From a virus, in the IMG/VR virus record IMGVR_UViG_3300034104_005553, positions 1-24,608 of that record: 24,608 bases of DNA; one strand, 5' to 3'. A program made the translations under genes and the position numbers. The notes beneath the pieces were generated by a model. It ran no database searches and was not told where the DNA came from. It worked only from the letters and a program-made list of their open reading frames with translations. This document shows, piece by piece, positions 5,835-22,703 of this stretch (within the stretch, counting starts at the first letter, position 1; each line of letters begins with the position of its first letter).

Positions 5835-6493
5835 AATCAGTTGTTGAATTAAAAAACAAACACGAAGGTGAAGACATATATATTTTAGCTTCAGGTAAAT
5901 CTGTCGATTTTTTTAACGAAGATTTCTTTGAAAATAAAATTGTTATTGGAGTTAACCAAGCATATAAAAAAATATGGTGTGATTATCTTGTTAGAAAAGA
6001 AGTTAAATTTATTAAAGAAAGTTTAGAAACAGATTCGATTGTTATTGTTTCCGAATATGATAGTGGAAATCTAAACTCTGGTGAGCACAAATTAAACACC
6101 AACAAAATCACCCACGATAATTTATACTACTTTCAACATTTAGATAATTTACATTCTAAAATTGACACTTCTGTTTTTGGTACTGATAAAATTGTTGTTA
6201 GTTATTCAACAATAACATCAGCGATGCATATTGCCGCATATATGGGTGCTAAAAACATTATTTTAGTTGGGCATGATTGTGGTACAATTGATGGTGAAAT
6301 GACATTTAAAGGTTATTATAATTCAATTAAAGACACACCATGGGTGGCCTGGGATCAATATAAGAATTGGTTAAAAGTAATAGAGGGGCAAACTATAATT
6401 GTCAAACGAGAAATTAAAAAATACTATGACGCGAATGTTGTATCATTAATACCATTTGTTTCATTAAATCTAGAAAATCATTTATATATGTAA
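5831..6493 (+). CDS. DUF115/GT42-like Rossmann protein, possible sialyltransferase
   Basis: A 220-aa protein starting D-I-Y-I-L-A-S-G-K-S-V near residue 15, then I-V-I-G-V-N-Q-A-Y-K near 37. It has T-S-A-M-H-I-A-A-Y-M-G-A-K near 129-141 followed by I-I-L-V-G-H-D-C-G. This arrangement (glycine loop, VN-AYK, TSA helix, then I-L-V-G-x-D) is shared by DUF115/MptE-like proteins and bacterial GT42 sialyltransferases. Since it directly precedes a CMP-sugar synthetase, a role in transferring or handling the nonulosonic sugar is plausible. It could equally be a modifying protein without transferase activity. Start and stop are both coupled to neighbours. Confidence 0.6.
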   Translation: MKSVVELKNKHEGEDIYILASGKSVDFFNEDFFENKIVIGVNQAYKKIWCDYLVRKEVKFIKESLETDSIVIVSEYDSGNLNSGEHKLNTNKITHDNLYYFQHLDNLHSKIDTSVFGTDKIVVSYSTITSAMHIAAYMGAKNIILVGHDCGTIDGEMTFKGYYNSIKDTPWVAWDQYKNWLKVIEGQTIIVKREIKKYYDANVVSLIPFVSLNLENHLYM

Positions 6494-7131
6494 TGAAAGA
6501 TGTCACTCTGCTAATACCAGCTAGAAGAAATTCAAAGGGTTTACCCTTTAAAAATAGAACTTTATTACCAGAAACACTAAATAATATACCAAAAGAATAT
6601 TGGGATAAAATTATTGTAAATACAGATGATGAGGTTATAATTGATAAATGTGTTGATTTAGGTATAAAATATTACAAAAGACCAGATATCTTTGCTACCG
6701 ATGAAGCATCGACAAAATCAGTTATTGAGGATATGATAATAACTGAAAAATTAAATGGTACCGTTATAATGTTATATTTAACGTATCCAGAAAGAACCTG
6801 GGATGATATAGTGTCAGCATATAATTACTATATCGAACATAAAGCAAAATCTTTATTATGTAAAAAAAACATTAATGGTACCCACCCATATTTATATTTG
6901 TTAGAAGTTGATAATAATATGGGGCGACAATTAAAAAAACATAATTTATACAGAAGACAAGATTATCCTAAAGTTTTTGAGCTTTCACACTTCATTTCAA
7001 TTTTTAATACAAGTGTTGTTAAAGATTTAAACAATAATTTGTATAATAATAAAACAATATTTTTTCCAATTATTGATCCAATTGATGTGGATAATAAATC
7101 TGATTTGGATAATTACTTATCAAAAAAGTGA
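6493..7131 (+). CDS. neuA: CMP-nonulosonate (acylneuraminate) cytidylyltransferase
   Basis: A 212-aa enzyme that joins CMP from CTP to a nonulosonic acid such as sialic acid, making the donor for sialyltransferases. The N-terminal L-I-P-A-R-R-N-S-K-G-L-P-F-K-N (residues 7-21) is the CTP-binding signature of this family. I-I-V-N-T-D-D-E near 40 and K-Y-Y-K-R-P near 60 follow, and I-D-P-I-D-V-D-N-K-S-D-L-D near the C-terminus supplies the conserved metal-binding acids. Length is close to the family's catalytic domain. The start codon follows the previous stop directly and the stop overlaps the next ATG. NeuB lies two genes away, which strengthens the call. CMP-Kdo synthetase is a less likely alternative. 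Confidence 0.85.
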   Translation: MKDVTLLIPARRNSKGLPFKNRTLLPETLNNIPKEYWDKIIVNTDDEVIIDKCVDLGIKYYKRPDIFATDEASTKSVIEDMIITEKLNGTVIMLYLTYPERTWDDIVSAYNYYIEHKAKSLLCKKNINGTHPYLYLLEVDNNMGRQLKKHNLYRRQDYPKVFELSHFISIFNTSVVKDLNNNLYNNKTIFFPIIDPIDVDNKSDLDNYLSKK

Positions 7132-9023
7132 TGGGTGTTTTCATAAGAAATAAAACAAAAAGAGTACAAAAAACTGAAGAAAAAGCCCCAGTTTTAGTAA
7201 ATACTAACCCAAATGAAAGTAAGGTTAGTGAAAATAACGCTGTTATTGAAAAAAAAGCGATTAAAAGTGGTTTTGGTGATATAAAAACCAAAACCACTGA
7301 GGTAAAAAAATCGGTTATAGATAACATATCAATCAATAAAGAACAAAATAAAGCTGTTAAACCATTTAATCAACCTAAAAAAGATAATCACCCAGCGACA
7401 CTTTTATTTAATAAAAATAAAGATTTGTCTTTTGAAAGAATTGTAGAAATCCCGAGAACTGAAAAAAAAATAAATGAATTTAAGTACAACACACCACCTA
7501 AAAAATATGCTTTAACAACAATATTAAATGATTCATTTGGTGAATATTTTTACGTTTTTTTAAACTCATTTCTTGAAAATAATAAATGGTTTAAAGGTGA
7601 TATCGTTATTTTACATAACAAACAATTATCAGAATTATCGGATGATAAAATAAGAAAAATTGGGTTATTGTATAGGAATATTATCTTTAAAGAGATAGAA
7701 ACAAATAAATACGATTACATTATTAACTTATTTAAGGAAAGAGTCAGCGCTAATATGCACAGATTCATACCATCTATATTAACAATAGAAGCGTTTAATT
7801 TAACTAAATATGATAAAGTATTATATTTAGATAGCGATATGTTAGTTGTTAACGATATATCAAATTTATTTTTAATTAGTAATAATATTGTTGTAACCAG
7901 AGACACATCTGTATATACAACGGATAATGTTATAAAAGAAATAAATCAAAATGAGCCTTTGTTAAATGGTGGTTTCTTACTGCTAGATGGTGATTTTATA
8001 AAATCAGATAATCATGTTAATAACATGATAGATATATTCCCAACAATAAGAGAACCAAAATTTTTGGATCAAAGTTTAATGAATGAATATTTTAAAAAAT
8101 TTGAGGTTTTATTTATTTCTTCTGATTATAACTTACTTAAAAGGTGTTTTGATGATTCAAAAGAAAGTCAACTTAAATTAAATCTTAAAAATATTAAGAT
8201 AATACATTACGTTGGCGAAAAACCTTGGAACCCAAAACAAAAAGATTTTGAAAAAAAATACAAAGCAATTGAAAAATTGTGGTTTGATTATAATGATAGG
8301 TATAAAAATATTTCGAACAAAATTGATGGTATTAATTTAATATCATCTGGTATTAATAGTGAAAAATTGTCAAGGATAGTCCCAAATATAAAAAATTATG
8401 ATACAGTAACAACAAATTGGGGCATTAATTTTAATAATATCATTGATATAGATTATTATTATTGCTCAACCCCAGAACTACCATTGTTAACTGAAATTAA
8501 TGATAAAAATTTTAAACCGAATAAACTCTGGTTATTAACTGATAACGTTAGTGTTAAATTAGGTAAAATTAAAAATGAAAAATTATCAAATGTCGATCCA
8601 TTTCATTTTATGAAAAATAGATCACCCGAATATTATTCTATAATAGAAAAAAGAAAAGAAAATAAAAAATACTTGTTACCAACATCAGGTGCTAGCATGT
8701 TATTATTTTTTAGTTTACTTGATATTTCAAATATCAATATAATCGGTTATAATTTATATAGTAGAGTAAATATTGACGGTTCTTATAAACAATTTGGCAC
8801 ATCAAAATTTGTTAACCCTTACACCGATAAAAATAAACCGCATTCTATTGAATTTGATTTAAATTTTATTATAATTGCATTAAATACACTAATTAATAAA
8901 AACGTTAATGTTAATTTTTATGAATCATACATTGTTAAAGATATGTATGATTTATTAAGAAAAAATTGGGAAGTTGGTGAGATTATAACTCACATTAAAT
9001 TAAAATATTATGGAGAAAACTAA
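7131..9023 (+). CDS. GT8 glycosyltransferase fused to a GT42 sialyltransferase-like domain
   Basis: A 630-aa two-enzyme fusion. Residues 1-120 are K/N/E-rich and probably disordered. Residues about 125-395 are a GT8 domain: L-Y-L-D-S-D-M-L-V-V (231-240, DxD at 234-236), L-N-G-G-F-L-L-L (278-285), F-L-D-Q-S-L-M-N (311-318) and H-Y-V-G-E-K-P-W-N (359-367). Residues about 400-625 start I-N-L-I-S-S-G-I-N-S and contain L-P-T-S-G-A-S-M-L-L-F-F-S (516-528) and I-N-I-I-G-Y-N-L-Y-S, matching the TSG...A..LG..EIYL.GIDFY core of Campylobacter Cst-type GT42 sialyltransferases. It may add two successive sugars, the second from CMP-nonulosonate. ATG 7131 is preferred over the adjacent GTG at 7128. Confidence 0.75.
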   Translation: MGVFIRNKTKRVQKTEEKAPVLVNTNPNESKVSENNAVIEKKAIKSGFGDIKTKTTEVKKSVIDNISINKEQNKAVKPFNQPKKDNHPATLLFNKNKDLSFERIVEIPRTEKKINEFKYNTPPKKYALTTILNDSFGEYFYVFLNSFLENNKWFKGDIVILHNKQLSELSDDKIRKIGLLYRNIIFKEIETNKYDYIINLFKERVSANMHRFIPSILTIEAFNLTKYDKVLYLDSDMLVVNDISNLFLISNNIVVTRDTSVYTTDNVIKEINQNEPLLNGGFLLLDGDFIKSDNHVNNMIDIFPTIREPKFLDQSLMNEYFKKFEVLFISSDYNLLKRCFDDSKESQLKLNLKNIKIIHYVGEKPWNPKQKDFEKKYKAIEKLWFDYNDRYKNISNKIDGINLISSGINSEKLSRIVPNIKNYDTVTTNWGINFNNIIDIDYYYCSTPELPLLTEINDKNFKPNKLWLLTDNVSVKLGKIKNEKLSNVDPFHFMKNRSPEYYSIIEKRKENKKYLLPTSGASMLLFFSLLDISNINIIGYNLYSRVNIDGSYKQFGTSKFVNPYTDKNKPHSIEFDLNFIIIALNTLINKNVNVNFYESYIVKDMYDLLRKNWEVGEIITHIKLKYYGEN

Positions 9024-9855
9024 AATTATAGCAGAAATAGGGATTAATCACAACGGTGATATTGAAATTGCAAAACAATTAATAATGGTGGCTAAGGCCG
9101 CTGGTTGTGATTATGTAAAATTCCAAAAAAGGAACCCAGATGTTTGTGTCCCTGAGGATCAAAAAAGTAAAATGCGTCAAACACCATGGGGTGAAATGAC
9201 ATATTTGGAATATAAGTGGAGAACAGAATTTAATTACGAAGAATATGATATTATTGATAACTTCTGTCATCAAATTGGAATTAAATGGTTTGTTTCCGTT
9301 TGGGATAAAGATAGTGTCGATTTTATGGATATTTTTAGAAGGTTGGGTAAATCATACGATGGTACAATCAAAATCCCATCAGCGTTAATCACAGATTTAG
9401 AACTTTGTGGGTATGCAAGAGATAACTGCCAAAATTTGATTATTTCAACGGGCATGAGTACGGAAAACGAAGTTAGGGCGTGTATTAACGCTTGTACCCC
9501 AGATGTTGTTATGCACACAAACTCAACATATCCGTGCCCAGTTGAAGAATTAAATTTAAATTACATTAATTGGCTCAAATCTTGGTACCCAGGTTTAGAT
9601 ATTGGATACAGTGGACACGAATATGGTCTTGTAACAACATTTGCAACAATACCAATGGGTGTAACCTGGATTGAAAGACATGTAACGCTTGATAGAAATA
9701 TGTGGGGCTCTGACCACTCAGCATCAATTGAACCATCTGGTTTATTTAAATTAGTTAAAGGTATTCGTGATATCGAAGCTGCTTTGAGCATACCAATGAA
9801 AGCAAGAGAAGTTTTTGGTGGTGAATTATCTAAACAAAAAAGTTTAAGAAAATGA
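9010..9855 (+). CDS. neuB: NeuB-like nonulosonate synthase without SAF domain
   Basis: A 281-aa TIM-barrel enzyme that condenses phosphoenolpyruvate with an N-acetylhexosamine to form a sialic-acid-like nonulosonate. The start A-E-I-G-I-N-H-N-G-D (8-17), V-K-F-Q-K (36-40), I-K-I-P-S (near 119), I-S-T-G-M-S and the late barrel strands (I-G-Y-S-G-H, I-E-R-H-V-T-L-D-R) are NeuB hallmarks. Typical NeuB is about 340-350 residues because a C-terminal SAF (antifreeze-like) domain closes the partner subunit's active site. This protein stops at K-Q-K-S-L-R-K, just where that domain would begin. The start lies 14 bases inside the fusion gene. Substrate (sialic, legionaminic or other) is undetermined. 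Confidence 0.85.
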   Translation: MEKTKIIAEIGINHNGDIEIAKQLIMVAKAAGCDYVKFQKRNPDVCVPEDQKSKMRQTPWGEMTYLEYKWRTEFNYEEYDIIDNFCHQIGIKWFVSVWDKDSVDFMDIFRRLGKSYDGTIKIPSALITDLELCGYARDNCQNLIISTGMSTENEVRACINACTPDVVMHTNSTYPCPVEELNLNYINWLKSWYPGLDIGYSGHEYGLVTTFATIPMGVTWIERHVTLDRNMWGSDHSASIEPSGLFKLVKGIRDIEAALSIPMKAREVFGGELSKQKSLRK

Positions 9856-10484
9856 AAAGTAAAGAACATGATAAATTAGTTGATTTTTGGGACAATTGTG
9901 ACCCAGTTTTTTCACATATTAAAATTGAAGATTACTTAGTTGATTTAGAATCATTAGTTAAAAGTTGGGAAAATAATTTCCTAAAATTTTATGACTTTAA
10001 AAACAAAGTTGTAATCGATTACGGAATAGGTGGTGGTTATCTTGGTTTATATTTGTTAAAAAGAAAAGAACTATCAAAATATGTTGGTTTTGATATATCA
10101 AATAGACAATTAAATGAGGCTAGAAAAGTTTTAAGTAATCTTCCTGTTATATTATATAACACGGCCCAAAAAAATACTTTTAATGAGTTTAATGCGGATA
10201 TTTTTATTTGTCAAGCGGTTATTCAGCATTTTCCGAGTGAAGAGTATTTGATAAATTTTTTACATAACATAAATAAATCAAAAATAAATGATGTTATGCT
10301 ACAAATAAGATATAACGAAAAAACAATTTTTAACGAAAATTATAACACAACAGAAAACGTTAGATTGGCTTGTCAAACAAACTCAGATTATATATTAAAT
10401 TATTTAACAAATTACCATTTAGTTAAAAGTAAAAAAATAAAAAACAAATCAAATTACGAATATTTGTTTTTTCAAAAAATTTAA
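9852..10484 (+). CDS. SAM-dependent class I methyltransferase
   Basis: A 210-aa protein with a Rossmann methyltransferase fold. Motif I is V-V-I-D-Y-G-I-G-G-G-Y-L-G at 53-65, the acidic end of strand 2 is V-G-F-D-I-S, and F-I-C-Q-A-V-I-Q-H-F near 116 fits motifs IV and V (methyltransferase type 11/12 style: ..xxxVHHF). It transfers a methyl group from S-adenosylmethionine. Its overlap with NeuB by four bases suggests it modifies a sugar or glycan, though a small molecule or protein target is possible. The C-terminal third (NYHLVKSKKIKNKSNYEYLF) matches the usual antiparallel strand pair. Confidence 0.8.
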   Translation: MKSKEHDKLVDFWDNCDPVFSHIKIEDYLVDLESLVKSWENNFLKFYDFKNKVVIDYGIGGGYLGLYLLKRKELSKYVGFDISNRQLNEARKVLSNLPVILYNTAQKNTFNEFNADIFICQAVIQHFPSEEYLINFLHNINKSKINDVMLQIRYNEKTIFNENYNTTENVRLACQTNSDYILNYLTNYHLVKSKKIKNKSNYEYLFFQKI

Positions 10485-10527
10485 ATATGATTAAAGTATT
10501 TGAAAATAGAATCGAAGTTGTGTTAGC

Positions 10528-10559
10528 TTTGGTATTCATTTAAATAAAAAATAATCTTT
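10528..10559 (+). promoter_or_regulatory. Possible weak Bacteroidetes-type promoter
   Basis: TTTGG begins at 10528. Its TTG (10529-10531) is followed after exactly 20 bases by TAATCTTT (10552-10559), the spacing used at 2423 and 22825. The -33 box is good but the -7 box deviates from TAnnTTTG at its end. It lies in an 82-base gap just before the GH130-like gene, where a promoter is expected. Confidence 0.35.
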
Positions 10560-10566
10560 TACCAAA

Positions 10567-11577
10567 ATGGTGTACACATTTAAAGATTTTTTAGAAAAAA
10601 CATCTAAACCAAAAAGAAAAAGCACTTTAGGTGATTTTATTAGAAGAGAAATATACTCTTATAAACCACACCTAAAAATAAAAGATACTTTATTAATTAA
10701 TTCCAATAAATTACTTAAATCCTATAAATTACCAAGTGCGGATGTTGGGTATGTAACTAACTGGTTTAATGGTTCTATAATAAAATACAATAATAAAAAT
10801 ATGTTTTGTTATAGAATGGAAATCCCCCCAAAATGGTTTCAATACCAAAAAATAGGGTTGGTTGAACTCGATGATAATTTACAACCAATACCCGAAACTA
10901 ATAAATTATTAAATTTACATAGTGTATTTAACGGCTATCATGTTGAAGACCCAAGGTTATTTGAAAATTTTGGTGATCTTATGTTAGCGTATACGGATGG
11001 TTATAATATGGCTTTAGCCAATTTAAGTAAAAATACTTCCGAATACCTTAAAAAACCATCAAATAAAAGTGTACCAGAACATGATGGTCGAGAAAAAAAC
11101 TGGGTACCATTTAGTTATAATAACAAAGTTCATTTTGTATACCACACAAACCCAAATCATATTGTTATTGATTTGGAAAATAATGTTTATGAACAAAAAA
11201 TTAATTTAAAATATAAATACGGTCAAATTAGAGGTGGTACACCCGCATACAACATGGGTGATTATTACTTAAGTTTTTTTCATTCCTCAACCCCGTTAAA
11301 ATCAGAAAAACATGGTAGGATTTATTTTATTGGGGCTTATATTTTTGAAAATAAACCACCATTTAGACCGATATCATATACACCCGAACCATTAGTAATG
11401 GGTGAATATTTTGATATGTCAGTAAAAAGACCAGCCAATACGGTTTTTGTGGTTTTTCCTTGTGGTGCTATATTTGATGGTGAAAATTGGAAAGTATCTT
11501 TTGGATATCAAGACTATGAAAATAGGATATTCACTATTAATAATAAAGAATTACTTAATTTAATGGTAAAAATATGA
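10567..11577 (+). CDS. GH130-like beta-propeller protein (glycoside phosphorylase/hydrolase family)
   Basis: A 336-aa protein with motifs of the GH130-type five-bladed propeller: V-E-D-P-R-L-F (126-132), D-G-R-E-K-N-W-V-P-F (173-182), R-G-G-T-P-A-Y (222-228), S-F-F-H-S-S (236-241) and V-V-F-P-C-G near the C-terminus. Classical members phosphorolyse or hydrolyse beta-mannosides. The subgroup with E-K-N-W and R-G-G-T-P is mostly uncharacterised and often found beside glycosyltransferases. It may trim, transfer or bind the glycan. It begins after an 82-base gap with a possible promoter, and its stop overlaps the HAD gene start. Confidence 0.65.
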   Translation: MVYTFKDFLEKTSKPKRKSTLGDFIRREIYSYKPHLKIKDTLLINSNKLLKSYKLPSADVGYVTNWFNGSIIKYNNKNMFCYRMEIPPKWFQYQKIGLVELDDNLQPIPETNKLLNLHSVFNGYHVEDPRLFENFGDLMLAYTDGYNMALANLSKNTSEYLKKPSNKSVPEHDGREKNWVPFSYNNKVHFVYHTNPNHIVIDLENNVYEQKINLKYKYGQIRGGTPAYNMGDYYLSFFHSSTPLKSEKHGRIYFIGAYIFENKPPFRPISYTPEPLVMGEYFDMSVKRPANTVFVVFPCGAIFDGENWKVSFGYQDYENRIFTINNKELLNLMVKI

Positions 11578-11900
11578 ATATATATGTAGATGTTGACAAT
11601 ACAATAACCGAGACGATAGGTATGGATTACGAAAATGCCAAACCTATTTATGAAAAAATTTCAATTATAAACAAATTGTACGATGAAGGTCATACAATAA
11701 CATACTGGACAGCAAGGGGTTCAGTTTCTGGTATTAATTTTTACGAATTAACCAAATCCCAATTAGAAAATTGGGGTGCAAAACATCACAATTTTATGGT
11801 CGGTAAGCCAGCTTACGATATATTTATTGATGATAAAACAATAAACAACATTAATGAAAACCTTTTTACATGGGTAACCAAAGAAGAAGAAAAAAACTAA
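11574..11900 (+). CDS. Small HAD-superfamily phosphatase-like protein
   Basis: A 108-aa minimal HAD fold. Motif I is V-D-V-D-N-T (5-10) with nucleophile D6 and acid D8. Motif II is Y-W-T-A-R-G, motif III the Lys of V-G-K-P, and motif IV D-I-F-I-D-D-K. All four catalytic motifs look intact, and there is no large cap domain, as in small sugar-phosphate or polynucleotide 3'-phosphatases. It could dephosphorylate a sugar phosphate in the glycan route or a nucleic acid end. It starts within the last bases of the GH130-like gene and overlaps phoH by 31 bases. Confidence 0.8.
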   Translation: MNIYVDVDNTITETIGMDYENAKPIYEKISIINKLYDEGHTITYWTARGSVSGINFYELTKSQLENWGAKHHNFMVGKPAYDIFIDDKTINNINENLFTWVTKEEEKN

Positions 11901-20105: not shown

Positions 20106-21671
20106 ATGGGACTATACCGCACATATTTTGACAAGAATAATACAATTATAAAAAATTCTTTTGTAAACACTGGTAGAAACCAGGTTTCTGAGTTATATTT
20201 TGGTGATAGTGTAAGCCGTTTCCTTTTTTATTGTTCGTTTGATGAAATAAAAAATAAAGTTTTTAACAAGGAAATTATTATAAATGATAGTGTTAAACAC
20301 TATTTGAAAATAAAAAACACATCAAATTTTGATGTGTCGGCCTTTTTATCCGATAGTAATAATCTAGTTTTTTCAGACAAATACAGATCTTCTTCTTTTG
20401 ATTTGGAGTTAAAACCAACAAAAGAATTTTGGGATGAAGGTATGGGGTATGATTTCCAACCAAGTCCTTTGTCAAGACCACAAGATCGAGACTTTAGTGA
20501 AGAACCATCAAACTGGTTTAATGGTACTTACATTTCAGAATTTTTAACACCTGGGGTTACTTTAGGTGAGACAATTACAAACCAACATTTTGATCGCGGT
20601 AATGAAGATGTTTACATGGATATTACCGAGTTTGTAAATAATATTCTAATAAACGGTATTACCACGGGTATAACGACTGGAATAACGACTGGAATAACGA
20701 CTGGAATTACTACGGGTATAACGACTGGAATTACAACAGGTATAACGACTGGAATAACGACTGGAATTACTACGGGTATAACGACTGGAATTACAACAGG
20801 TATAACGACTGGAATTACAACAGGGATTACCACAGGTATAACAAGTAATTACACTGGTTTTTGTTTAAAATATACTAACCCATATGAGATTTTAACTTTT
20901 GATGATGACAGAGCATATGTTTTGGGTTTATTTACAAAACACACCCAAACATTTTTTGAACCATTTATTGAAACTCATTATGATGATCTTATACAAGATG
21001 ATAGAGTTGATTTTTATTTAAACAAACTTAATAGGTTATATTTGTATGTTAATATTGACGGTAAATTAACAAATTTGGATGAGTTACCTAATTTCAACAT
21101 TCAAGGTGTTGTGTTTACGCAACAACCAATTGTTAAACAACAAACTAAGGGTGTTTATTATGTTGAATTTTTTGCATCAAGCGATACTTTTGATTCGTAT
21201 GTAGAATATAAAGATATTTGGTCTAACATTAAAGTAAATGGTATAAATAGACCAAATGTAACCCTTAAATTTGTACCTAAAGAAGATAACGATTTTTATC
21301 AAATAGGTTCTGAGGTGTCGGATCCTATAAGATACGGTATATCTGTTAGTGGTATTAAAAGAGAAGAAAAAGTTAACCAAGGTGAAAACAGAAAAGTAAA
21401 TGTTTTACTACGAAAGCCTTATACTGTTGAACAGCACGATGTAAAAACAAATGTTTATTATAAATTGTATGTGAAGCAAGGCCCAAACATTGTTGATATA
21501 ACAGATTGGCAACATGTCAATAAATTATATAACACAAATTCATTTAATATTGATACAACTTGGTTGGTACCACAAGTATATTACGTTGATATTAAAGTGG
21601 AAAGAAATGGTGAAGTTAATTTATATAATGAGGAATTAAAATTCACCATAGTAAGTAAATTTAAAGGATAA
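20106..21671 (+). CDS. Probable virion protein with a DNRLRE-like domain and a GITT repeat
   Basis: A 521-aa structural-type protein. Residues about 15-260 resemble the DNRLRE/carbohydrate-binding beta-sandwich: S-E-L-Y-F-G-D, W-D-E-G-M-G-Y-D-F, N-W-F-N-G-T, and N-E-D-V-Y-M-D-I-T-E-F-V-N-N-I before the repeat, then N-Y-T-G-F-C-L-K-Y after it. The 64 residues at 184-247 are 15 GITT units plus one GITS, inserted where the fold normally has a short loop. The C-terminal 270 residues are beta-rich with three or more Ig-like strand sets. It follows the hub gene, so it is probably a baseplate, tail-fibre or neck protein exposed on the virion. Its start is three bases after a TATTTATA octamer. Confidence 0.65.
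   Translation: MGLYRTYFDKNNTIIKNSFVNTGRNQVSELYFGDSVSRFLFYCSFDEIKNKVFNKEIIINDSVKHYLKIKNTSNFDVSAFLSDSNNLVFSDKYRSSSFDLELKPTKEFWDEGMGYDFQPSPLSRPQDRDFSEEPSNWFNGTYISEFLTPGVTLGETITNQHFDRGNEDVYMDITEFVNNILINGITTGITTGITTGITTGITTGITTGITTGITTGITTGITTGITTGITTGITTGITTGITTGITSNYTGFCLKYTNPYEILTFDDDRAYVLGLFTKHTQTFFEPFIETHYDDLIQDDRVDFYLNKLNRLYLYVNIDGKLTNLDELPNFNIQGVVFTQQPIVKQQTKGVYYVEFFASSDTFDSYVEYKDIWSNIKVNGINRPNVTLKFVPKEDNDFYQIGSEVSDPIRYGISVSGIKREEKVNQGENRKVNVLLRKPYTVEQHDVKTNVYYKLYVKQGPNIVDITDWQHVNKLYNTNSFNIDTTWLVPQVYYVDIKVERNGEVNLYNEELKFTIVSKFKG
20655..20846 (+). repeat. Sixteen 12-base coding repeats (GITT/GITS)
   Basis: Sixteen 12-base units in a row, each encoding GITT except the last, GITS. At least seven nucleotide versions of the unit occur (such as GGTATAACGACT and GGAATTACAACA). 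A 60-base block of five units at 20691-20750 is repeated exactly at 20751-20810. The units vary almost only at synonymous sites. Confidence 0.97.
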
Positions 21672-22072: not shown

Positions 22073-22703
22073 TTTTATAAAAAATTTAAAAGAAGTTAAT
22101 CAAGCTCCTACAACTAAAGATATAGAAACGGCGTCAAAAAACGTTGAAGCATTAACTGGTGCAGTAAAATCACTTGGCGACAACATGCAAACGTTAAAGG
22201 ATATGGGTATTGTTGGCGAAGATTTTGATGCCTCCAAGAATTATGAAACTGAAGATGATTTTTATAAAGCAATTATTGATCATTTGATGTATAAAAAATA
22301 TAGGATGACCTATTTTAACCCAATTGAAAGTAAAAGTTCGGAACCTAATCAACCAAAAGAAGAACCAAAACAAGATAAACAATTAAGTTTGGACTTCCCG
22401 AAAGAAAAAGAAATAGAGTTTCCAAAAGAAGAAACACCAAAACCAATTTCACAGATGTCTGATAGTGAATTTAATGATTATATGCAATCAAAAGGTCATT
22501 TAAATCAAGACGGTTCTTTATATTTTGTGGTTAATTTAATTAAAAAAGGTTCATTGAGAAGAGCATATATTGCTTTACAGGACATTATTAGAAAAAATCT
22601 TGAAGAAAATTTTGCGGATTCAAAAATCTTCACTATTATTGCAGAGGCAGAAACGCCAAAAATCAGTAAAAAAGAAATTTTAGAATACTTAAAACGCAAT
22701 TAA
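22059..22703 (+). CDS. Hypothetical protein with a charged linker
   Basis: A 214-aa protein in three parts. Residues 1-80 are helical (S-K-N-V-E-A-L-T-G-A-V-K-S-L-G). About 85-135 is a K/E/P-rich disordered linker. About 138-214 is a compact helical domain (S-E-F-N-D-Y-M-Q, Y-F-V-V-N-L-I-K-K-G-S-L-R-R-A-Y). This flexible-linker layout is common in phage adaptor and scaffolding proteins, but no family is recognised. It overlaps the preceding gene by 14 bases. Confidence 0.6.
   Translation: MKKIDFIKNLKEVNQAPTTKDIETASKNVEALTGAVKSLGDNMQTLKDMGIVGEDFDASKNYETEDDFYKAIIDHLMYKKYRMTYFNPIESKSSEPNQPKEEPKQDKQLSLDFPKEKEIEFPKEETPKPISQMSDSEFNDYMQSKGHLNQDGSLYFVVNLIKKGSLRRAYIALQDIIRKNLEENFADSKIFTIIAEAETPKISKKEILEYLKRN

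Follow-up and report, generated by a model that had tools for sequence, protein, structure and literature searches.

A tandem array encoding the four-residue unit GITT is under purifying selection, varies in length among related phages and, in every relative examined, occupies the same loop of one protein, which has 521 residues here. On balance, we favour reading it as a selected lengthening, variable in size, of a single exposed loop; the protein is probably a structural component of the virion. The array lies in a 24,608-nucleotide stretch of DNA from a large uncultured phage (IMG/VR record IMGVR_UViG_3300034104_005553, positions 1 to 24,608), referred to here as the window. Sixteen 12-base units at 20655-20846, fifteen encoding GITT and the last GITS, had been described in the first-pass annotation, and both the coordinates and the units are exact; the array is in frame within the open reading frame at 20106-21671. 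The features that define the loop and its protein are as follows:

20106..21671, + strand: open reading frame of a predicted virion-type protein (521 aa) that carries the array, with an N-terminal beta domain and two Ig-like domains
residues ~1-297, ~298-400 and ~408-521 (AF2 model): beta domain, DNRLRE/CBM96-like, followed by the two Ig-like domains
20622..20642, + strand: conserved loop entry DITEFVN (residues 173-179), from the alignment of relatives
20655..20846, + strand: GITT array, sixteen 12-bp units, fifteen GITT and one GITS (residues 184-247)
20682..20815, + strand: higher-order duplication, a 74-bp exact repeat with copies starting at 20682 and 20742 (offset 60 bp)
20856..20873, + strand: conserved exit strand GFCLKY (residues 251-256)

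The AGT codon that makes the last unit GITS belongs to the loop exit; at the same position the loop exits of relatives read GVTSSYN, GITYNYQ and GITGNHY. Other short coding tandem repeats in the window are located at 10692-10732 and 22351-22375 (18-bp and 12-bp period, respectively).

The fifteen GITT copies of the window are encoded by six distinct DNA units, which are separated by at least 8 silent changes and no replacements (pS 0.67, pN 0). If mutations were random, 31% of the changes in GITT units would be silent and 69% would replace a residue, and the observed count deviates strongly from this neutral expectation (P = 7.6e-5). The fifteen units differ only silently, as had been claimed, which places the encoded motif under purifying selection. 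Replacements are also rarer than silent changes when relatives are included, as a minimal count over eight long arrays pooled gives 55 silent changes against 10 replacements (P ~2e-19 against the 69% neutral value), which bears out the proposal that selection acts on the repeat itself. The four positions are not equally constrained. In the pooled long arrays the glycine at position 1 shows 16 silent changes and no replacement, a count that is partly built in by the definition of the unit; an unbiased count finds glycine in 115 of 118 internal units. Thr-3 shows 16 silent changes and no replacement, and Thr-4 13 and 1. The isoleucine at position 2 is the loosest of the four, with 10 silent and 9 replacement changes, yet it is still conserved beyond the neutral ratio of 2:7 (P 0.004). 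Among the 118 internal units, Gly, Thr and Thr/Ser are near-invariant at their positions, whereas isoleucine is present in 101. In the long arrays, position 2 varies significantly more than the hydroxyl-bearing positions (Fisher P 1.3e-9). Isoleucine is a feature of long arrays (97 of 113 units, in two clades), whereas short arrays, represented by 10 units only, carry Thr, Ser, Ala or Val. The constraint is unexceptional compared with the flanks: pN/pS is 0-0.18 in long arrays, where the upper values include interrupted or edge units, and 0.02-0.26 in the flanks between relatives, which puts conservation of the array on a par with that of the remaining protein and not above it.

Selection had been proposed in place of a fresh expansion, and here the data differ from the earlier view, as both processes occur. 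Tandem-repeat analysis of the window detects a 60-bp higher-order period over the array (94% match), and units 4-8 are identical to units 9-13, giving the 74-bp exact repeat. Only 4 of 5000 unit shuffles reach the same identity, indicating that some of these units arose by recent duplication. Old, silently diverged units are thus mixed with fresh ones. DNA units are almost unshared between the arrays of different phages; this alone does not prove array replacement, as silent sites are too diverged, but taken together with the internal duplications it demonstrates turnover of the array.

Relatives were collected from IMG/VR in two scans: the window protein as query returned nine, and an aligned set of the post-array part returned 272, 80 of them retained. 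Whenever a checked relative has the array, it lies between DI[T].[FY]VN and GFC[LI]K, and the loop ranges from 12 residues without a repeat up to 122. Within the close clade, whose proteins begin with MG[IL]YRTYFD[KR]NN, one group has a loop of 12-13 residues without an array (SIISGATSGTTYN) and other members have loops of 15-28 residues; the clade contains a loop of four GTTT units (L068) and one of five GSTT units (L057). Both of these arrays are homogeneous (GGATCTACAACA four times in L057), and that of L057 is young. Loops of 58-122 residues with nine to 16 GITT units are found, likewise in this clade, in the window and in L001, L002, L008, L009, L014, L019 and L029, and the longest loop is that of L065/G014. 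Perfect conservation of the encoded unit therefore holds within the window and fails among relatives, whose units include GVTT, GMTT, GTTT, GSTT, GYTT and GVTS and many of which have no array. Distant relatives have a short ordinary loop of unrelated or faintly similar sequence, such as VNGILTGNTTNHGIGIKF; unrelated sequence at the site, which the first-pass annotation named as evidence against its view, thus occurs in distant relatives only.

The comparison of repeat number among relatives that had been suggested reveals variation down to a single unit. L021 and L020/L077 each differ from L023 by one 12-bp unit and are otherwise ~99.5-99.9% identical in DNA, so near-identical genomes differ by whole units and the array behaves as a VNTR. 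In a tree inferred from the flanks alone, supported branches force a minimum of four gains or losses of long arrays, as compared to 11 on average when labels are shuffled; repeated gains and repeated losses are not told apart by this tree. Unit counts come from short-read metagenome assemblies, which makes absolute numbers uncertain, and that of the window is more credible because its longest exact repeat (74 bp) is shorter than common read lengths. GxTT arrays are cut by contig ends in L013, L015, L020 and L147, as expected where short-read assembly breaks.

The AF2 model of the 521-residue protein, built with 46 relatives, has a mean pLDDT of 80.6. Residues 298-521 match Ig/alpha2M-MG-like folds in VIA-align (Z up to 9.9): residues ~408-520 superimpose on complement MG domains with Z 9.9 and rmsd 2.8 over 101 residues, and both Ig-like domains together match complement, alpha-2-macroglobulin and S-layer proteins with large rmsd. 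As modeled, the C-terminal part matches an Ig-like/MG-like beta sandwich over a whole domain, a common fold that implies no function. Such domains fill the PDB fold list, and residues 1-297 are barely covered by it. In BFVD the first-ranked entry is a full-length relative, a ctNQV2 protein of 31% identity, and the tenth is a SecTim467 protein annotated as CBM96 (E 6.2e-6, TM 0.26, rmsd 7.5). The order of the motifs WDEG, SNW, GNED, DIT..VN and GF.L, judged by eye, resembles that of DNRLRE/CBM96 proteins. However, the CBM96 profile (PF24517) has no match in the window protein, and on the corresponding segment of three relatives it scores 13.3-15.2 bits, below the cut-off of 26 (E 1.4e-4 to 2.5e-3 for one genome). 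The array had been placed in a loop of a DNRLRE-like virion domain; the loop site is real and the domain is probable, and 'DNRLRE-like' is probably a fair description of the N-terminal domain, judging from motifs and model, and does not amount to membership of CBM96.

Pfam, PHROGs and NCBIfam assign the protein to no confident family, and a PDB profile search returned nothing at E 1. UPF0158 exceeds its cut-off of 21.1 bits in three relatives (21.4-23.7) over only ~31 residues and was dismissed as chance, and FliH and tape-measure profiles match on the array only, reflecting its composition. A tblastn search of cultured phage records found no relative of the protein, bacterial and archaeal genomes gave none either, and a literature search found no paper on the GITT repeat or the protein. 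The window ends in a fragment of a T4-type terminase, 34-37% identical to cyanophage gp17, and the array gene occurs on contigs as long as 298,833 and 320,934 bp; together these indicate large T4-related phages. The array gene is positioned four genes before the terminase, and from this placement and its domains we infer that the protein is part of the virion. The array loop is probably exposed.

GxTT repeats are not confined to this loop. At least 119 stretches of (GxTT)4 occur in viral contigs, often in large ORFs and likewise as tandem 12-bp units; they encode GGTT, GATT, GTTT or GSTT, so that position 2 is usually Gly, Ala, Thr or Ser. Isoleucine arrays, in contrast, occur almost only in the 521-residue family at its loop: (GITT)3GIT is present in 20 IMG/VR stretches, from perhaps seven distinct phages, and 17 of these are in this loop. 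Ten (GITT)3 DNA matches in bacterial and archaeal genomes lie outside the family, mostly in short or incidental frames. The isoleucine version is thus the special part of the 521-residue protein's loop. Within the same phage group, GxTT loops recur in two other large proteins, one of 904 residues (G001) and one of more than 1600 (G015, G013, G022), which indicates that these phages tend to lengthen loops with GxTT. They are encoded as follows:

L144:3027-5738, - strand: GxTT repeats in large proteins
L145:3-4877, + strand: as above
L147:1-4998, - strand: as above
L148:1-3672, - strand: as above

The repeats in these two proteins read GLTTGSTTGFTTGFTT, GTTT four times, GSTTGTTT and GITTGVTTGIT. 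Two described systems resemble the array in part. The GxxxG repeats of FliH/YscL also place glycine at every fourth residue and vary in steps of four, whereas their intervening residues are the helix-favouring Glu, Gln, Lys and Ala and the protein is unrelated (PMC2674601); a FliH-type repeat was rejected for the array, in which these residues are Ile, Thr and Thr. In crAss-like phages, the BACON tandem repeats are likewise a hotspot of change in a phage protein, but they are whole carbohydrate-binding domains and not a four-residue loop unit (PMC6949934).

Three other accounts of the array itself were considered. A simple repeat that is tolerated, evolves neutrally and has yet to decay would agree with the recent 74-bp duplication, with the homogeneous arrays of L057 and L068 and with the abundance in viral contigs of arrays having Gly, Ala, Thr or Ser at position 2. 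We consider this distinctly improbable, as a unit pS of ~0.6-0.7 with pN near 0 means that many mutations have passed and replacements have been removed, a pattern that contradicts neutrality unless mutation is extremely biased towards third positions. A defined period-4 structure is also rather unlikely, though it has more in its favour. The array could form a beta-solenoid or beta-arm, or a glycine-zipper (GxxxG) helix pair, with the isoleucines packing, copy number setting the length of the rod or hairpin, and possible self-association. The retention of isoleucine in the long arrays of two clades, where short arrays have Thr, Ser, Ala or Val, goes beyond the need of a mere flexible spacer; it hints at a defined structure and to that extent counts against the spur-like extension that we favour. 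AF2 models the array of the full protein as two helices of ~23 residues (pLDDT ~57-73) and the array alone, without an alignment, as one long helix with pLDDT above 90, and the weak FliH matches arise from the common GxxxG spacing. Isoleucine, threonine and glycine are, however, poor helix formers in water. Apart from glycine, every residue of the unit is beta-branched, a poor composition for a water-exposed helix, and perfect repeats give AF2 little information; for these reasons the modeled helix is chemically doubtful and was not relied on. The beta-stack suggested by the first-pass annotation is a possible conformation. The helix-favouring composition of FliH repeats (PMC2674601), the wide variation in unit number and the presence of GTTT or GSTT at the same site also speak against a period-4 structure. 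The same helices are approximately of membrane length, and beta-branched residues next to GxxxG are typical of helices in membranes, judging from the title of a reference listed in PMC2674601; both would suit a membrane-active glycine-zipper hairpin for genome entry. Such a role is highly improbable, given that mean Kyte-Doolittle hydropathy is only ~+0.68 per residue, the GTTT and GSTT versions are polar and the length varies freely.

The remaining account draws on the genes upstream of the array gene, which encode glycosyltransferases, a CTP transferase, NeuB, a methyltransferase, a GH130-type protein and an MptE-like protein, and which include the following feature:

window 6493-11900, flanked by the dUTPase/GT2 genes and phoH: cassette subject to gain and loss, carrying CTP transferase (PF02348), GT8, NeuB, methyltransferase and GH130-like genes

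The cassette is predicted to encode a nonulosonic-acid-type pathway of the phage. The array, with ~32 Thr/Ser in 64 residues, could then be a mucin-like O-glycan acceptor decorated by the neighbouring enzymes (CTP transferase, NeuB, GT8, GT2, methyltransferase and MptE-like), an idea that we regard as improbable. It would fit the two near-invariant hydroxyl positions beside a variable position 2, and the location of NeuB, the CTP transferase and glycosyltransferases roughly 5-15 kb upstream. O-glycosylation of Caulobacter flagellin, moreover, needs NeuB-dependent pseudaminic acid (PMC7591256). Among related records covering the region, the NeuB part is present in ten, including the window, and absent in nine; all ten have loops of at least 15 residues, and the group with 12-13-residue loops lacks NeuB. 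On the tree, however, this association reduces to three independent contrasts, of which two are for and one against in most pairings; with three contrasts it cannot reach significance and gains no support beyond coincidence. L065/G014, despite its 122-residue loop, has no NeuB in over 35 kb upstream, NeuB-less phages have GxTT loops in other proteins too, and the cassette may modify host glycans instead. The full version, a phage-made mucin-like spur that bears nonulosonic-acid glycans from the phage's own NeuB/CTP-transferase cassette on the virion, is a long shot; if true, an adjustable-length glycosylated threonine array would shield the particle or tune adsorption.

Under the favoured reading, a length-variable extension of an exposed loop, the array would have been seeded by a short G-x-T-T that the loop of relatives already contains, and 12-bp units would be gained and lost in frame by duplication and loss, through slippage or unequal recombination. 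Between length changes, selection purges nearly all replacements, keeping glycine at position 1, threonine at 3, threonine or serine at 4 and mostly isoleucine at 2. The result would be an uncharged, threonine-rich, period-4 spur standing off the domain, which may serve as a spacer or contact surface. This is a fairly ordinary selected length-variable loop and not a new system. It is nevertheless a clean example from nature of DNA units that differ by lineage while the four encoded residues stay, with short-loop relatives as controls. A minimal repeat in a virion-type protein can here be tested directly for its copy number, structure and function, and GxTT loops emerge as a recurrent route of loop lengthening in this phage group.
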